The notes below the pieces were generated by a model. The model had not been told where the DNA came from and did not search any database. It saw only the letters and a program-made list of their open reading frames with translations. Below are positions 1 to 16,871 of a DNA stretch of 64,000 nt, piece after piece. The stretch covers positions 1-64,000 of the forward strand of contig PWUU01000007.1 in NCBI GenBank assembly GCA_003562475.1, read 5' to 3'. The DNA is from Dehalococcoidia bacterium. GTDB lineage: Bacteria; Chloroflexota; Dehalococcoidia; GIF9; AB-539-J10. Each line of letters opens with the position of its first letter. The stretch's first letter is position 1. Position numbers and translations under genes: made by a program.

Positions 1-603
1 CTTGACCGTCCGGCGGCGCTGCCGCTGCCGCAGAGGCCGTACGAGTACGCGGAGTGGCGCAAGGCAGGGGTGAACCTCGACTACCACATCGAAGTGGATG
101 GCCACTACTACAGCGTCCCGTTTGCGCTGCTGCGAGAGAGGGTGGACGCGCGGGTGACGGCGACCACGGTTGAGGCGTTTCGCAGGGGCGAACGGGTCGC
201 CGCCCATGCCCGGTCGCACGTCCGTGGCACCCACAGCACCGTCAGGGAACACATGCCCCCAGAGCACCGCCGCTACGCCGAATGGAGTCCGTCGCGCTTC
301 ATCCACTGGGCGGGCAAGACGGGGGCGGCTACCGCCGAGGTGGTGGAGCGAATACTGGCCTCGCGCACCTATCCGGAACAGTCCTATCGAGCCTGCCTCG
401 GCATCATGCGCCTGAGCCGGCAGTATGAGCCGTCGCGGGTGGAGGCCGCGGCGAGGAGGGCCCTCAACTTCAACGCCTGCTCCTATCGATCGATGCGCTC
501 CATCCTGGCCTCGGGGCTCGATGGGCACCCGTTGGCCGTAGAGGAGAGCACGATGCCTTTGCCGCTGCACGAGAATGTCAGAGGACGTGACTGCTACAAC
601 TAA
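1..603 (+). CDS. istA: IS21-family transposase IstA, C-terminal part
   Basis: This is the 3' part of an IS21 transposase gene; the reading frame is open to base 1, so the N-terminal HTH and most of the DDE core are missing from the window. The visible 200 residues match the C-terminal region that follows the catalytic core in IstA proteins, including the YHIEVDGHYYSVPF segment seen in many Mu-type C-terminal domains of this family. The stop is followed after 13 bases by istB, with AAGGAGG between them, so the two are co-transcribed. IstA would cut and join DNA during transposition. Confidence 0.85.
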   Translation, partial: LDRPAALPLPQRPYEYAEWRKAGVNLDYHIEVDGHYYSVPFALLRERVDARVTATTVEAFRRGERVAAHARSHVRGTHSTVREHMPPEHRRYAEWSPSRFIHWAGKTGAATAEVVERILASRTYPEQSYRACLGIMRLSRQYEPSRVEAAARRALNFNACSYRSMRSILASGLDGHPLAVEESTMPLPLHENVRGRDCYN

Positions 604-5265: not shown

Positions 5266-5981
5266 ATGGGCGTGAATCTGGACGATTTGCTTCAGATCTA
5301 GAGAAGATACGCGGCGGCCGAGAACCGATTGCCTCGCGTCATCGAGGCCACCGAGGCCTGGGTGCGCCCATTCGTTACATACCTCGACCATGAGTTCGAC
5401 CCGGGCGCGGTGAGGCCTGACGATCTGCGCCACTACATCCTGCACCTTCAAGCAAGGCACAGGTGGCAATCGCACCCTACCATCTCCCCGGGAAAGGGTG
5501 GCCTGTCGCCGTTTACCATCGCCACCCACGTGCGCACGATTAAGGCCTTCTGGGCATGGCTTGCGCGCGAGGAATTCATCACCGACAGACGGATCAACGT
5601 TGTACCAACCCCCAAGACTCCCGTGCGCGACGTGAGACCGCTGTCCGCTGGTGCGTGCCATGCGCTTATTGATGTGGTACCCGAGAAGGGATTCACCGGA
5701 ATGCGAGATAGGGCTCTCCTGTTCGCTCTGTTGGGTTTGGTGCATGCATCACAGAGCTCATATCCCTCAGATGCTCGGATGTCGACTCTGAGACCGGACA
5801 ACTTCGCGTACTCGGCAAGCGTAACAAAGAGCGACGACTCTTCATGAGCAATGCTGTGTTCAAGGCAATGCACAAGTACTGGCACAGGGAAAGAAGCGGA
5901 CGACCTGGCCAATACTTCTTCGTGACAAGAGACGGCAGTCCGTTGACACGGTGGCACGTCGATGCCCAGAGCGAGCAATGA
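5266..5981 (+). pseudogene. Tyrosine recombinase (XerC/integrase type), degraded
   Basis: Three faults break this gene. An ATG at 5266 opens MGVNLDDLLQI and then meets TAG at 5299. The frame continues with a SAM-like core-binding domain (WVRPFVTYLDHEFDPG, then FTIATHVRTIKAFWAWL) to GMRDRALLFALLG near 5735. There the frame shifts; the continuation TELISLRCSDVDSETGQLRV and GKRNKERRLFMSNA is in another frame and ends at 5981. The catalytic HxLRH and Tyr region is absent. It cannot recombine DNA. Confidence 0.8.
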
Positions 5982-10245: not shown

Positions 10246-10263
10246 CTAATGGTCTCATAATAG
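10246..10263 (+). repeat. IS630 left inverted repeat
   Basis: CTAATGGTCTCATAATAG matches the other end in 16 of 18 positions. The transposase stop codon (10255-10257) lies inside it. Confidence 0.85.
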
Positions 10264-11298
10264 GCCGGTCTCACTGAATCGCAGCATATGCGGTCTCGGG
10301 CAGAGCAAAGAAGGAGCGTACGAGAGCAGGCAGTTTCTGCATCTTTCTGAGATGGAAATGACCAGTTGTTTCAGGTGATCGAGACCGGCTATGGTTTGTC
10401 TCCCAACGCTGTGATGCTTCAGGTGGTTCCAGACCTGTTCGTCAGGGTTGAGTTCCGGGGAGTATGGCGGAAGGTGGAAGAGCTGCAGCTTCCCTCCGGT
10501 GGAGGCGACGAATCTGGAGACCGCCACCGATTTGTGCACCGGATGGCCATCGACAATCAGGAACACAGGACGAGGCCAGTTGTGTATCAGCCGCTTCAAG
10601 AAAGCAATGAAGATATCACTGGTGAGCCAGCCCTCAATGAGCATGAAGCGCATGGCTCCACGGGGGGAGACGGCAGACACCATGCTGCAGCCGAAACGGG
10701 CCCCGGTAGTGGCAACCACAGGTGTCTTGCCCCGAGCCGCCCAGGTCCCGCCCGAGTGGAAGTCGGAGCGCACTCCCGCCTCATCACCGAAGAATATGTC
10801 CGCCTTCTGCTTGCGCGCCAGAGCGCGGATCCTCGGGTATTCCTCCTGGACCCATCTGTCAACGAGCCCACCATCCCTCTGAAAGGCGCGGCACATCGGC
10901 CTCTGAGGGCCGAAGCCGAGTTGCCTCAGCAGGCGACAGATCGAGGCTTTGCTGAGACGAATGTGGAACTGGCGCCACACCACTTCAGCTGCCATGGCGC
11001 TCGTCCACAAGGCAAAAGGGAACTTCATCTGCCGCGGGTCCTTCATCACCGTTTCGTCGATACACCGCATCATCTCGGCTGTCAGTCTAGGCGGGCGGCC
11101 ACCGCGCTTGCGAGCATCCAGGGCATGCCATCCTCCCTGGCGATAGCGGGCAAGCCAGCCGAACAGCGTAGACCTCTGCACTCCAAGCACCCTGGCCACC
11201 GGTGTTGCCGGTTGTCCATCCTGAACCGCCAACACCCCTCGCTTACGCAGTTCCGTGAGTTCACTATGCGTAAGCCGTCGCGCATCTGTTTCTCTCAT
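10255..11298 (-). CDS. IS630-family transposase
   Basis: A 347-residue DDE transposase in one frame. The N-terminal HTH part includes ATPVARVLGVQRSTLFGWL; the catalytic part shows Asp in FFGDEAGVRSDF, Asp in FLIVDGHPVHKS and Glu in LPPYSPELNPDEQVW, the usual DDE pattern of the family. An upstream extension of the frame to 11445 crosses the inverted repeat and is not native; ATG 11298 gives the normal length. No frameshift or stop is seen, so the enzyme is probably active. Confidence 0.93.
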   Translation of the reverse strand: MRETDARRLTHSELTELRKRGVLAVQDGQPATPVARVLGVQRSTLFGWLARYRQGGWHALDARKRGGRPPRLTAEMMRCIDETVMKDPRQMKFPFALWTSAMAAEVVWRQFHIRLSKASICRLLRQLGFGPQRPMCRAFQRDGGLVDRWVQEEYPRIRALARKQKADIFFGDEAGVRSDFHSGGTWAARGKTPVVATTGARFGCSMVSAVSPRGAMRFMLIEGWLTSDIFIAFLKRLIHNWPRPVFLIVDGHPVHKSVAVSRFVASTGGKLQLFHLPPYSPELNPDEQVWNHLKHHSVGRQTIAGLDHLKQLVISISERCRNCLLSYAPSLLCPRPHMLRFSETGLL

Positions 11299-11335
11299 GC
11301 CCCAATAGTAACCTGTTGAGGCCAACATGCCTACA

Positions 11336-11353
11336 CTACTATGAGACCATGAG
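11336..11353 (-). repeat. IS630 right inverted repeat
   Basis: On the minus strand this reads CTCATGGTCTCATAGTAG, the partner of the repeat at 10246-10263. Confidence 0.85.
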
Positions 11354-11567
11354 TATGTGAGGCAGTCTTGCGAGGGTGCGCGTCTGTCCACGCCCGTGAC
11401 ATCATCGAAGCCTGGAGGAAGGACCACAACAGCGCCGAGCCGCACATCTCTCCTGGCGGTCGGACGTCACAAGAGTACGCAGAGACAACGACCGGACTCC
11501 AATTGATACTGACGTCACATTCGGGGTATGGGCAAGGGACGGGGAAAGGTCAGTATCGTTGAACGTG

Positions 11568-13552: not shown

Positions 13553-14056
13553 TCACAGGTCAGCAGCGTTGGCCAAGTCCATGAGCTCATCCAAGACCTT
13601 GTGTAGCACGGGAAACTCTCGTCTGGTCATCCTTATCCTGGCAAGCGGCGTGCCAGATGTGACATCAAACACGTGCTTGTGGTAGTCGTCTAAGTCATCC
13701 TCATTGTCGTACCGAAGGATGTTGTGCTTGCCGGCTATCCGTGCGTTGTAGCTGTACGAGAGACACCTGACACGAAGCTGACCATTCTGCATGTGCTCAG
13801 TCTCAATGTATTTGCGGACTGACAGGATTACGTTACGGAGGCAGTAAACCTCGCCGGCGAAGGTAATGAACACTCGGCCGTCAACGTCGTACTGGTTGAA
13901 ACAGGGGATCGGATAGGAATGGTCAACAAATGGATGATTCTCTAGGTGTCGGATGTGGAGGTACCTATAGTTCTCGAAGCTGTTCCAGTCGTGGGGGTCC
14001 GGCCCTTGGAATATCCGTTCTGAAGGTGGGACAACACCGTGAAGGTCTGCATCCAC
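13553..14056 (-). CDS. TumE-like (DUF6516) toxin candidate
   Basis: The C-terminal half matches the DUF6516/TumE pattern: VRCLSYSYNARIAG, then NILRYDNEDD and YHKHVF. Family members are small toxins of type II toxin-antitoxin pairs. The longest frame overlaps the upstream partner gene by 115 bases, so the true start may be a later codon. The partner encodes an HTH-like protein. The two face the same way and probably form one unit inside an accessory region. Activity is inferred only. Confidence 0.62.
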   Translation of the reverse strand: MDADLHGVVPPSERIFQGPDPHDWNSFENYRYLHIRHLENHPFVDHSYPIPCFNQYDVDGRVFITFAGEVYCLRNVILSVRKYIETEHMQNGQLRVRCLSYSYNARIAGKHNILRYDNEDDLDDYHKHVFDVTSGTPLARIRMTRREFPVLHKVLDELMDLANAADL

Positions 14057-14232
14057 TTGCCTATCGCCTCAGTCTCAGTTGTTCGGCCCTCTCTAATGGC
14101 CCGACGCATCGCAATCGAGGACACCCCATAGCTGACTTCGTAGCGGGTGACTTCGGACTGGAGTCGGTCGGTTAGTTCGCAGCCGGGGCGCACCTTGATG
14201 CCATAGCGGCGTTCAGTGGCGGTCAAGTCCAT
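13942..14232 (-). CDS. TumA-like antitoxin candidate
   Basis: A 96-residue protein whose middle, VSYGVSSIAMRRAIREGR followed by a WMQTF aromatic stretch, fits the short helical antitoxins that sit next to DUF6516 toxins. ATG 14232 has GGGGGG six bases upstream. The last 38 residues overlap the toxin frame and look less natural, so a frameshift or shorter product is possible. It would bind the toxin and repress the pair. Confidence 0.5.
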   Translation of the reverse strand: MDLTATERRYGIKVRPGCELTDRLQSEVTRYEVSYGVSSIAMRRAIREGRTTETEAIGKWMQTFTVLSHLQNGYSKGRTPTTGTASRTIGTSTSDT

Positions 14233-14377: not shown

Positions 14378-14854
14378 CTAGTCTGAAGGTGTCGCTAGAC
14401 ACTGGTCGACTGTGCGTGCTGCAGCCTCCTGCAATCCGGGGAGAACATGCGAGTACGTGTCCATCGTGACGGCGATGTTGCTGTGCCTGAGCCTCTCACT
14501 GACAACCTTCGGATGGACACCGGCGGTCAGCAGGATCGTAGCGTGGGCATGACGCAAGCCATGCAGGGTGAGGTGAGGGAGTCCGGCCTTCTTTACAACA
14601 GTCTGGAAGTCCTGGCTGAGTTCATCGGGTATGACCGGTCGTCCATCGGGACGCGTGAAGACGTATCCGCTGTCCGTCCAGGCTTCGCCCACTAGCAAGC
14701 GCTGCGCGGTCTGGTAGTCTCTGACTGATTCAAGGACCTTGACCGCTTCAGGAGACAGGGCGATTGACCGGCGCGAGCGCGTGGTCTGGGGTTGCCCAAT
14801 AATGAGCCCCTGGCCCGTAATAACAGGGGGTCTGTAACGCCAAGAGGCAGGGCC
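14378..14854 (-). pseudogene. Tyrosine integrase, C-terminal catalytic fragment
   Basis: The frame is open from 14854 and shows the end of a phage-type integrase: TRSRRSIALSPEAVKVL, YVFTRPDGRP, the catalytic LTLHGLRHAHATILL, then HSNIAVTMDTYSHV with the Tyr nucleophile. The N-terminal arm-binding and core-binding domains and the first catalytic Arg are missing; a stop lies at 14855-14857. It is a remnant of an integrating element next to the tRNA cluster. Confidence 0.75.
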
Positions 14855-14995
14855 TCAGGGGGAGTATTGACAGTGTTTGCTTCGCGTACGACAATGCTTG
14901 TGCTGCACTGGAGAACTCGTCTAAGAGTGCGACATGTCCGCGTTCGGACTGTGGCACGGTGTCCAAGAGTCGAACTAGCGGGCAAGGGTCTCAGA

Positions 14996-16045
14996 GTGGT
15001 CGACAACAAGCGAGAGATAAGTCTGGCCGAAGAGCATCTGGAGAGGGTCGTGAGCCTCTCCACCGACGTGCTGGAGCGATTGCGACACGGGGCACGTGTG
15101 AGCGAGGTGCTCTCTGACATCAGTCTGATTGCGGCGATGCAAGGAGACCAGTGGGTAGAGGAACTGGTTTCATTGCTTGCATACGGATACGAACGGCACA
15201 CGGCCATGCAAGCCAAGGGAGTAGTGCGGCGTGCTTCACGCAAGGCAATGGAAACGTGGCTGTCACTCGTGGCAGTTGCAGACGTTCGACGAGTGGACCT
15301 TGAGAAGACAGCCGAGGAAGGTTTGCAGGTCGAGGACATAAAGCGAACCCAAGTGCTCACCGAAAGCGTGAGCATTTCGGAGCAGTGTGAGTTGGAGGAT
15401 GCGGGAAGTCCGCCACACCAAGCTGACAATCATGAACCCTCGAATTGGGCCCACTACAATGCGCTATTCCGGAGCGAACGGCAGGGAGTCCTGTATCGTG
15501 TTAGGTCGTACCTCAGTAACTACGTACAGCAGGTATGGCAGGAATCGACACGCGAGCAGCAGCGGATTCGCTTGCTCGGAATCGACTACCGCGTGGCGAT
15601 CACTAACCTCGATTCACTTCCTGGCGAACTAGGCGCTCAGTTGCTGGCTGCAGGTGACAATCTGAGGAGCTCGAATCCTCACAGCTGGCAGCTCTGCCTT
15701 CTGGGTTGTCGCAACGTGGTACTGGCCCTGGGGCGTGAACTGGGACCGTCGGACCCAGGGCAGTATACACTGCTGTGTGGCAGATCCATCGAGGTTGGGC
15801 CCACCCACGAGAAGAACGGGCTTCGGGCCTACCTTGACAAGAAGGCGCGCGAGACAGCTTCGATGAAGAGTATTGCCAGGATGGCAACAGAGGCGGACAA
15901 GCTGACCACACGGGTCTACGACGGAGGCTCCGCTGGAAAGAGCGGAGCCGGTGAGTATGACAAGGCAAAGAAAGTGCTGCTCGAAACCTACGCCCTGGTG
16001 CGGATTCTACGCAGCCTCGGAGCGTTCCCAGGCACTAGCCCTTAG
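14996..16045 (+). CDS. AbiTii-like candidate abortive-infection protein
   Basis: The protein (349 residues from GTG 14996, AAGGG seven bases upstream) has two parts that resemble AbiTii-type phage-defence proteins. The N-terminal helical part has SEVLSDISLIAAMQGDQWVE followed by LLAYGYE, like the xxWvxxELxGY pattern of the AbiTii domain. The C-terminal part has NLRSSNPHSWQLCLLGCRNV, like the helical domain that often follows it. A longer frame from 14792 overlaps the antisense integrase fragment and is less likely. Family assignment is by pattern memory and needs a profile search. The gene stands between the integrase fragment and the tRNA cluster, a common place for defence genes. Confidence 0.55.
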   Translation: MVDNKREISLAEEHLERVVSLSTDVLERLRHGARVSEVLSDISLIAAMQGDQWVEELVSLLAYGYERHTAMQAKGVVRRASRKAMETWLSLVAVADVRRVDLEKTAEEGLQVEDIKRTQVLTESVSISEQCELEDAGSPPHQADNHEPSNWAHYNALFRSERQGVLYRVRSYLSNYVQQVWQESTREQQRIRLLGIDYRVAITNLDSLPGELGAQLLAAGDNLRSSNPHSWQLCLLGCRNVVLALGRELGPSDPGQYTLLCGRSIEVGPTHEKNGLRAYLDKKARETASMKSIARMATEADKLTTRVYDGGSAGKSGAGEYDKAKKVLLETYALVRILRSLGAFPGTSP

Positions 16046-16184
16046 GTTCGAGCTTGGCAGTCTTGCTTGAGGAGCGCAGTTCGACGATAACGAGCAGCCG
16101 TGACCATTCTGTGACCATGTGGCGCGAAGACTCAGCAGATATGAAGGCAGACCAAACCTAGTCGTACGAACAAGCCACGTTCGG

Positions 16185-16267
16185 TGCCGAGGGGGGGATT
16201 CGAACCCACACTCCCTTGCGGGAAGCGGATTTTAAGTCCGCCGCGTCTGCCATTTCGCCACCTCGGC
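16185..16267 (-). tRNA. tRNA-Leu(TAA)
   Basis: Acceptor GCCGAGG pairs with CCTCGGC, A73 follows, anticodon loop CTTAAAA gives TAA, and the long variable arm TCCCGCAAGGGA marks a class II tRNA. Its 3' end points towards the integrase fragment. Confidence 0.95.
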
Positions 16268-16320
16268 ACAGGTCGGCTGGACGACCTCAAGGTCTGCGAG
16301 CTAACGTGGAAAACAATACA

Positions 16321-16393
16321 AGGCGGCGAGCGGATTCGAACCGCTGAATAGGGGTTTTGCAGACCCCCGCCTTAACCACTTGGCTACACCGCC
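16321..16393 (-). tRNA. tRNA-Cys(GCA)
   Basis: Acceptor GGCGGTG pairs with CGCCGCC, discriminator T73 as in tRNA-Cys, and the anticodon loop CTGCAAA gives GCA. Confidence 0.95.
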
Positions 16394-16416
16394 ATGTAGA
16401 GAGAGAAGAGAATTGG

Positions 16417-16488
16417 AGCGGAAGACGAGATTCGAACTCGCGACTTCCTCCTTGGCAAGGAGGCGTTCTACCACTGAACTACTTCCGC
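16417..16488 (-). tRNA. tRNA-Gly(GCC)
   Basis: Acceptor GCGGAAG pairs with CTTCCGC, T73, anticodon loop TTGCCAA gives GCC. Confidence 0.95.
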
Positions 16489-16537
16489 ACAGTCTTCATT
16501 GTACTGTCTCACGCACAGCTGTTCAAGGCAAGGGAAA

Positions 16538-16621
16538 TGCCGAGGGGGAGACTTGAACTCCCACGGGCTCACGCCCACCACCCCCTCAAGATGGCGTGTC
16601 TACCATTTCCACCACCTCGGC
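16538..16621 (-). tRNA. tRNA-Leu(GAG)
   Basis: Acceptor GCCGAGG pairs with CCTCGGC, anticodon stem CCATC/GGTGG with loop TTGAGGG gives GAG, and there is a long variable arm. Confidence 0.93.
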
Positions 16622-16625
16622 ATGG

Positions 16626-16699
16626 CAGGGGCGGCAGGATTCGAACCCACGACTCGCGGTTTTGGAGACCGCTGCTCTACCGGACTGAGCTACGCCCCT
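16626..16699 (-). tRNA. tRNA-Trp(CCA)
   Basis: Acceptor AGGGGCG pairs with CGCCCCT, discriminator G73 as in bacterial tRNA-Trp, anticodon loop CTCCAAA gives CCA. Confidence 0.95.
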
Positions 16700-16721
16700 A
16701 TGCACACTATTATCGTTCAAG

Positions 16722-16795
16722 TACCCCTGGGGCGACTCGAACGCCCGACACGCGGTTTAGGAAACCGCTGCTCTGTCCTGCTGAGCTACAGGGGC
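16722..16795 (-). tRNA. tRNA-Arg(CCT)
   Basis: Acceptor GCCCCTG pairs with CAGGGGT through a G1-U72 pair, anticodon loop TTCCTAA gives CCT. Confidence 0.92.
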
Positions 16796-16798
16796 TGG

Positions 16799-16871
16799 TG
16801 GAGATAGGGGGACTCGAACCCCCAACCTCCGCGATGCGAACGCGGCGCTCTCCCAGCTGAGCTATATCCCC
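16799..16871 (-). tRNA. tRNA-Ala(CGC)
   Basis: Acceptor GGGGATA pairs with TATCTCC and contains the G3-U70 pair that identifies alanine tRNAs; anticodon loop TTCGCAT gives CGC. Confidence 0.95.

Follow-up and report, generated by a model that had tools for sequence, protein, structure and literature searches.

The open reading frame at positions 14,996 to 16,045 of the 64,000-nucleotide stretch of DNA analysed here (the window) raises the question of whether a solitary gene, lodged between the remains of an integrase and a cluster of tRNAs, encodes a phage-defence protein and, if so, of which kind. The original prediction had presented it as an AbiTii-like candidate defence gene that stands alone, in which two domains could be read, a possible AbiTii-type one at the N-terminus and a helical one at the C-terminus. 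As set out below, its product is a diverged, degenerate-looking addition to an already known protein family, likely of defence origin judging from its relatives.

The gene and its slot

The frame is a real gene. It starts with GTG at 14996 and remains open throughout its 349 codons up to a stop codon at 16043-16045 (protein residues are numbered from V = 1 at 14999); at the composition of the gene, a run of this length has a chance probability of about 8e-6, and the GC content per codon position (0.66/0.44/0.65) matches that of the metabolic genes nearby. Although the stretch of 204 nt before the GTG (14792-14995) is also open, its codon-position GC is unlike that of neighbouring genes and a start at 14996 is thus sensible. 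L061, the nearest homologue, begins at a corresponding place, and candidate expression signals precede the GTG (Table 1).

The slot in which the gene lies measures 1361 bp (14822-16182) and is largely taken up by it; no other gene is found inside, and no adjacent AbiTi partner is present there, the neighbours being an integrase fragment and an array of seven tRNAs (16183-16871), all on the minus strand. Every element of the predicted placement was hence recovered: the open frame, the PF00589 fragment and the seven tRNAs. The integrase fragment corresponds, with 82% identity, to residues 229-374 of an integrase from a congener that is 377 residues long; the first 228 residues are missing and were not found elsewhere in the genome, where the remaining matches belong to different integrases.

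Table 1. Features of the query gene and of its immediate surroundings (window coordinates).
Feature	Position	Strand	Basis or remark
Putative stand-alone AbiTii-HEPN-like gene	14996..16045	+	GTG start, 349 codons + stop; full-length homologue L061/L082, 31% identity
Weakly AbiTii-like N-terminal helical region, residues 1-96	14999..15286	+	hhalign 29.7%, E 5.6e-4, 76 columns
Predicted long helix, residues 160-193	15476..15577	+	Corresponds to L003 long helix 124-194
Likely C-terminal HEPN-fold domain, residues 206-345	15614..16033	+	hhalign 99.4%, E 7.3e-22; VIA Z 9.4-9.8 to 2hsb, 3o10, 3mfn
Ribosome-binding-site candidate AAGGG	14984..14988	+	Sequence; spacing to GTG 7 nt
Sigma-70-like promoter candidate TTGACA-17-GACAAT	14867..14895	+	Upstream of gene; consensus match only
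Fragment of a tyrosine integrase (C-terminal 146 residues, truncated near 14821)	14384..14821	-	Pfam PF00589, 54 bits
tRNA-Leu(TAA)	16183..16267	-	3' half (16185-16232) = duplicated att-like core
Remaining tRNA array: Cys, Gly, Leu(GAG), Trp, Arg, Ala	16321..16871	-	

An integration hotspot at tRNA-Leu(TAA)

Judged from sequence comparison within the genus, the 3' end of tRNA-Leu(TAA) is an integration hotspot and the query gene is one of its variable cargoes. No second att copy was found in the window at up to 3 mismatches. The same genome carries two orphan tRNA-Leu(TAA) 3' halves on contig C29, one of them beside a chromosomal flank known from congeners. In congener G443, the 3' half recurs at a distance of 2.3 kb from the tRNA (94% identity over 48 bp), and the interval between the two harbors a TumE-like pair and an integrase remnant together with a cargo gene other than that of the window; in congener G442, copies 7 kb apart enclose an intact integrase and other cargo. 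It is this duplication of the 3' half around variable cargo that identifies the site as an accretion hotspot. The query gene was found in one of the seven genomes of the genus, and it does not lie on a foreign contig, since tRNA, TumE-like and integrase sequences of the window contig recur in the congeners.

Several further observations concern these islands. Repeats of the tRNA-Leu(TAA) 3' half occur at 16185-16232 in the window, at 6249-6296 in L067, at 4360-4412 in L068 and at 5325-5382 and 18953-19008 in L079, and the orphan copies on contig C29 flank transport and metabolic genes. Besides the integrase, no Pfam or PADLOC family was matched by the cargo genes of the congener islands: in G443, the slot between integrase remnant and tRNA-Leu that corresponds to that of the query gene holds an unmatched 254-aa protein (L067 7615-8379, minus strand), and in the G442 island (L068 4719-11134) the intact integrase is accompanied by four unmatched proteins of 194, 353, 366 and 523 aa that possibly represent new cargo functions. 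The window also contains a two-gene unit (13553-14056 and 13942-14232, both on the minus strand), one product of which resembles a TumE toxin (22 bits, just below the cut-off of 23.4) and the other of which, an overlapping 96-aa protein, belongs to no Pfam family; the unit is conserved in G443 (L067 6599-7278) with 76% DNA identity. Finally, translations reveal an IS21-like gene pair at the contig edge (70-1420) and an IS630-like transposase to the left of the integrase fragment (10255-11445).

Family membership through relatives

The AbiTii profile search that had been proposed as a check gave no match for the query itself. Its protein retrieved no relevant match and no defence family from Pfam, PADLOC or NCBIfam, and the AbiTii models (Pfam PF18864 and PADLOC AbiTii) matched neither the query at E <= 1 nor anything in the whole genome at E <= 0.1. 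Likewise, there were no tblastn matches of the query in plasmids and phages, no matches in viral contigs searched with the query or with the query/L061 pair, and nothing relevant in a sequence search of the PDB; a scan with an 11-sequence alignment offered no usable conserved stretch.

A phylum-wide genome search yielded weak relatives, of which L002 and L003 proved real. Two other candidates were dropped as chance matches, L005 reading like an NAD synthetase/amidohydrolase and L007 like an off-frame translation. Further relatives were drawn from plasmids, from the class, from viral contigs and, in the case of L021, from a genome within the same taxonomic family. The plasmid-borne ones include the Acinetobacter lwoffii protein WP_004733168.1 and a Streptomyces protein, both regarded as intact. 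L003 scores 36 bits with the Pfam AbiTii model, above the gathering score, and 8 of the 14 relatives scanned match AbiTii, clearly in L003, L013, L014, L015, L021 and L085 and more weakly in L002 and L060; Pfam scores of 35-48 bits were obtained among the relatives, as were PADLOC matches. When an HMM was built from 11 relatives with the query left out, the query scored 48.6 bits, against at most 6.5 bits among 2000 shuffled versions; on its own, the C-terminal part yields 47.6 bits, and the first 150 residues yield 2.6 bits. L061, found a second time as L082, is the closest homologue; it stems from Chloroflexi bacterium RBG_16_68_14 (MGOB01000046.1) and is collinear over its full length, with 31% identity and a phmmer score of 109 bits; it is the only relative found in 84,980 species genomes, which were scanned non-exhaustively by means of two short peptide patterns. 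Within the class, 12 of 343 genomes gave profile hits, and within the phylum 6 of 400 did so.

These comparisons support an AbiTii-type ancestry of the query, reached through its relatives rather than through direct profile matches. The AbiTii-like identity originally proposed stands in that sense, but it finds no direct profile match, and both the AbiTii glutamate and the HEPN histidine are missing from the query. The relatives fit the published description of c2405 HEPN proteins (PMC3710099), a status assigned to them here from their architecture.

Predicted structure

Aligned with the family (L061 included), the two halves of the protein behave differently (Table 1): the match of the C-terminal half argues strongly for its membership in the family of AbiTii-matching relatives, whereas that of the N-terminal half is weak and points only weakly to an AbiTii-like region. 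With regard to the two domains read originally, the C-terminal one is supported, by both profiles and fold comparison, and the N-terminal one weakly so.

The structure of the query was modelled with AlphaFold2 on an 11-sequence alignment. The model presents confident helices within residues 5-60 and a confident domain at 206-344 (pLDDT mostly 83-94 over residues 206-345), residues 64-157 being unreliable; the N-terminal helices span residues 2-29, 34-48 and 51-62. The model of L003 is better than that of the query (pLDDT 84.6) and shows a similar helix order, with short N-terminal helices followed by one long helix and a HEPN bundle; its top VIA rows are the sacsin HEPN domain (Z 9.9), TT1696 (Z 8.5) and a toxin-antitoxin chain (Z 8.4). 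For the C-terminal domain of the query, the best VIA matches (Z 9.4-9.8) are 3mfn and two annotated HEPN domains, AF_0298 (2hsb, Z 9.6) and sacsin (3o10, Z 9.4), which thus make up two of the three top rows; two further HEPN-type chains appear at Z ~7, and unrelated helical proteins start at Z 7.8. Since Foldseek searches against PDB and BFVD gave nothing significant, the HEPN assignment rests on VIA-align, for which values of Z below ~13 may reflect a common arrangement in helical bundles and values of 9-10 fall below the safe level of the tool. For this reason, we regard a HEPN fold of the C-terminal domain as likely, not as proven.

Conserved residues and the proposed mode of action

Comparison of the query with 23 relatives reveals both retention and loss at conserved positions. 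The arginine of 'CR' (R238) and the asparagine of 'NRL' (N273) are invariant among the relatives and retained by the query. At the position of the AbiTii glutamate, 19 of the 23, L061 included, have this residue, whereas the query has Leu60 (15176-15178). The histidine of the HEPN site, present in 20 of the 23, is absent from L061, L060, L021 and the query, which has G-K-S at residues 313-315, and the arginine of NRL has been lost only in the query (Gly) and in L061 (Lys). According to Anantharaman and co-workers (PMC3710099), the AbiTii domain has a conserved glutamate and c2405 proteins, which carry an AbiTii N-terminus and sometimes a C-terminal HHH, keep the HEPN histidine and lack the arginine. 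The query itself shows neither residue of the R-X4-6-H ribonuclease motif at the corresponding site. With the histidine lost from the query and the family described as lacking the arginine, RNase action appears unlikely and the protein is probably non-enzymatic.

Our preferred reading, held with moderate confidence, is that the query represents a stand-alone, strongly diverged AbiTii-HEPN (c2405-type) single-gene abortive-infection protein, carried as cargo at the tRNA-Leu(TAA) hotspot. An AbiTii-like helical domain at the N-terminus would be joined through the long helix to the C-terminal HEPN-fold bundle, long helix and bundle could form a dimer, and the AbiTii part might engage a phage or cell target. 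Infection would then be blocked through binding and not through RNA cleavage, given that the query lacks the HEPN histidine and that most of the family lacks the HEPN arginine.

The joint absence of the AbiTii glutamate and the HEPN histidine means, on the other hand, that the query may be a copy that has worn out or been repurposed. The main rival explanation is that of a former AbiTii-HEPN defence gene that has lost its function while its frame is still unbroken, which we deem rather unlikely. It draws on the loss of both these residues and of the NRL arginine, on the truncation of the adjacent integrase, on the lack of a distal att copy in the window and on the finding of the gene in one of the seven genomes of the genus. 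Yet no stop interrupts the frame, its codon-position composition is normal, a start signal and a candidate promoter accompany it, and L061, which also lacks the histidine and the NRL arginine, is, like the query, full length at 31% identity; persistence of both at full length despite shared losses argues for long-term constraint on this form. A bolder proposal, which we advance only tentatively and consider doubtful, is that the query and L061 make up a separate AbiTii-HEPN subfamily, so far found only in Chloroflexota, in which the HEPN histidine is replaced by lysine (G-K-S) and a pseudo-HEPN protein would act in single-gene defence without RNA cleavage.

Genomic contexts of the relatives

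Relatives occur in 27 records of plasmids and on viral contigs, of which there are 8. L089 belongs to a phage structural module, where it is flanked by portal and terminase genes, L094 adjoins an integrase, L095 lies ~1 kb from an AbiH gene, and L058 and L024 stand beside recombinases or a Tn3 transposase. In L089 (7962-10285), the AbiTii-HEPN relative and a Schlafen/AlbA_2 gene lie together against the direction of transcription. The neighbourhood survey suggested at the outset has thus returned plasmid, provirus, recombinase and AbiH contexts, along with copies that stand alone among metabolic genes. No neighbour recurs among the relatives examined, which supports a single-gene mode of action and agrees with the original view of the gene as standing alone. 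An integration hotspot, plasmid- and provirus-borne relatives and a relative near an AbiH gene fit a defence cargo.

The original prediction had also held that a lack of profile hits, together with homologues mainly in core contexts, would speak against it. The first was indeed observed in the libraries; as to the second, homologues often reside on mobile elements, though several Chloroflexota copies occur amid housekeeping genes. The solitary position of the latter among core metabolic genes lends some weight to a non-defence protein, in which a HEPN fold would have been turned to housekeeping or regulation and would have nothing to do with phage, as do the extra N-terminal residues of L021, with a weak GntR-like match. 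We judge this explanation improbable in view of the patchy occurrence of profile hits at the class and phylum levels, the absence of the gene from congeners, and the plasmid, provirus and recombinase contexts of its relatives. The L021 extension itself, about 100 residues before the AbiTii domain (171-480, plus strand), is perhaps a DNA-binding fusion. Least probable by far is an active HEPN ribonuclease toxin that cuts RNA to kill the infected cell: the C-terminal domain is HEPN-like in its predicted fold and L013, L014, L016 and L096 carry an R-X5-H motif at the right place, but both R and H are missing there from the query, and absence of the R is part of the published description of the c2405 family (PMC3710099).

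Should the query work in defence, it would follow that an AbiTii-HEPN protein can do without both a partner and a HEPN ribonuclease site, and that members of this sort are overlooked by profile-based defence finders; should it not, it would be a worn copy of a known kind. The tRNA-Leu(TAA) 3' end, as an island hotspot of a Chloroflexota genus, is in addition a place to seek other unnamed cargo genes.

Comparison with known systems

A distant relation is possible between the N-terminal domain of the query and AbiT (AbiTi/AbiTii) of Lactococcus lactis, which differs in being a two-gene operon whose AbiTii has no HEPN domain (PMC3985639, PMC3710099), whereas the query has no partner. Published tests on AbiT toxicity offer mixed support: AbiTi and AbiTii of L. 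lactis did not inhibit the growth of E. coli, whereas AbiTi of C. catus did (PMC3985639). In predicted fold, residues 206-345 resemble 2hsb, 3o10 and 5yep (SO_3166; VIA Z 7.0), with identities of 8% or less, and 5yep belongs to a HEPN toxin-antitoxin pair whose second gene has no counterpart at the query locus. L061/L082 is, like the query, a stand-alone protein without the HEPN histidine; unlike the query, it keeps the AbiTii glutamate (SEMYG) and an arginine before the lost histidine, and no tRNA or integrase gene was seen on its 6.9-kb contig. The c2405 HEPN proteins with an N-terminal AbiTii domain (PMC3710099) retain the HEPN histidine and the AbiTii glutamate, both lost from the query, which also escapes the AbiTii profiles, but they share with it, as far as predicted for the query, the domain order and the C-terminal HEPN-fold domain, and also the single-gene arrangement and the invariant R238 and N273.
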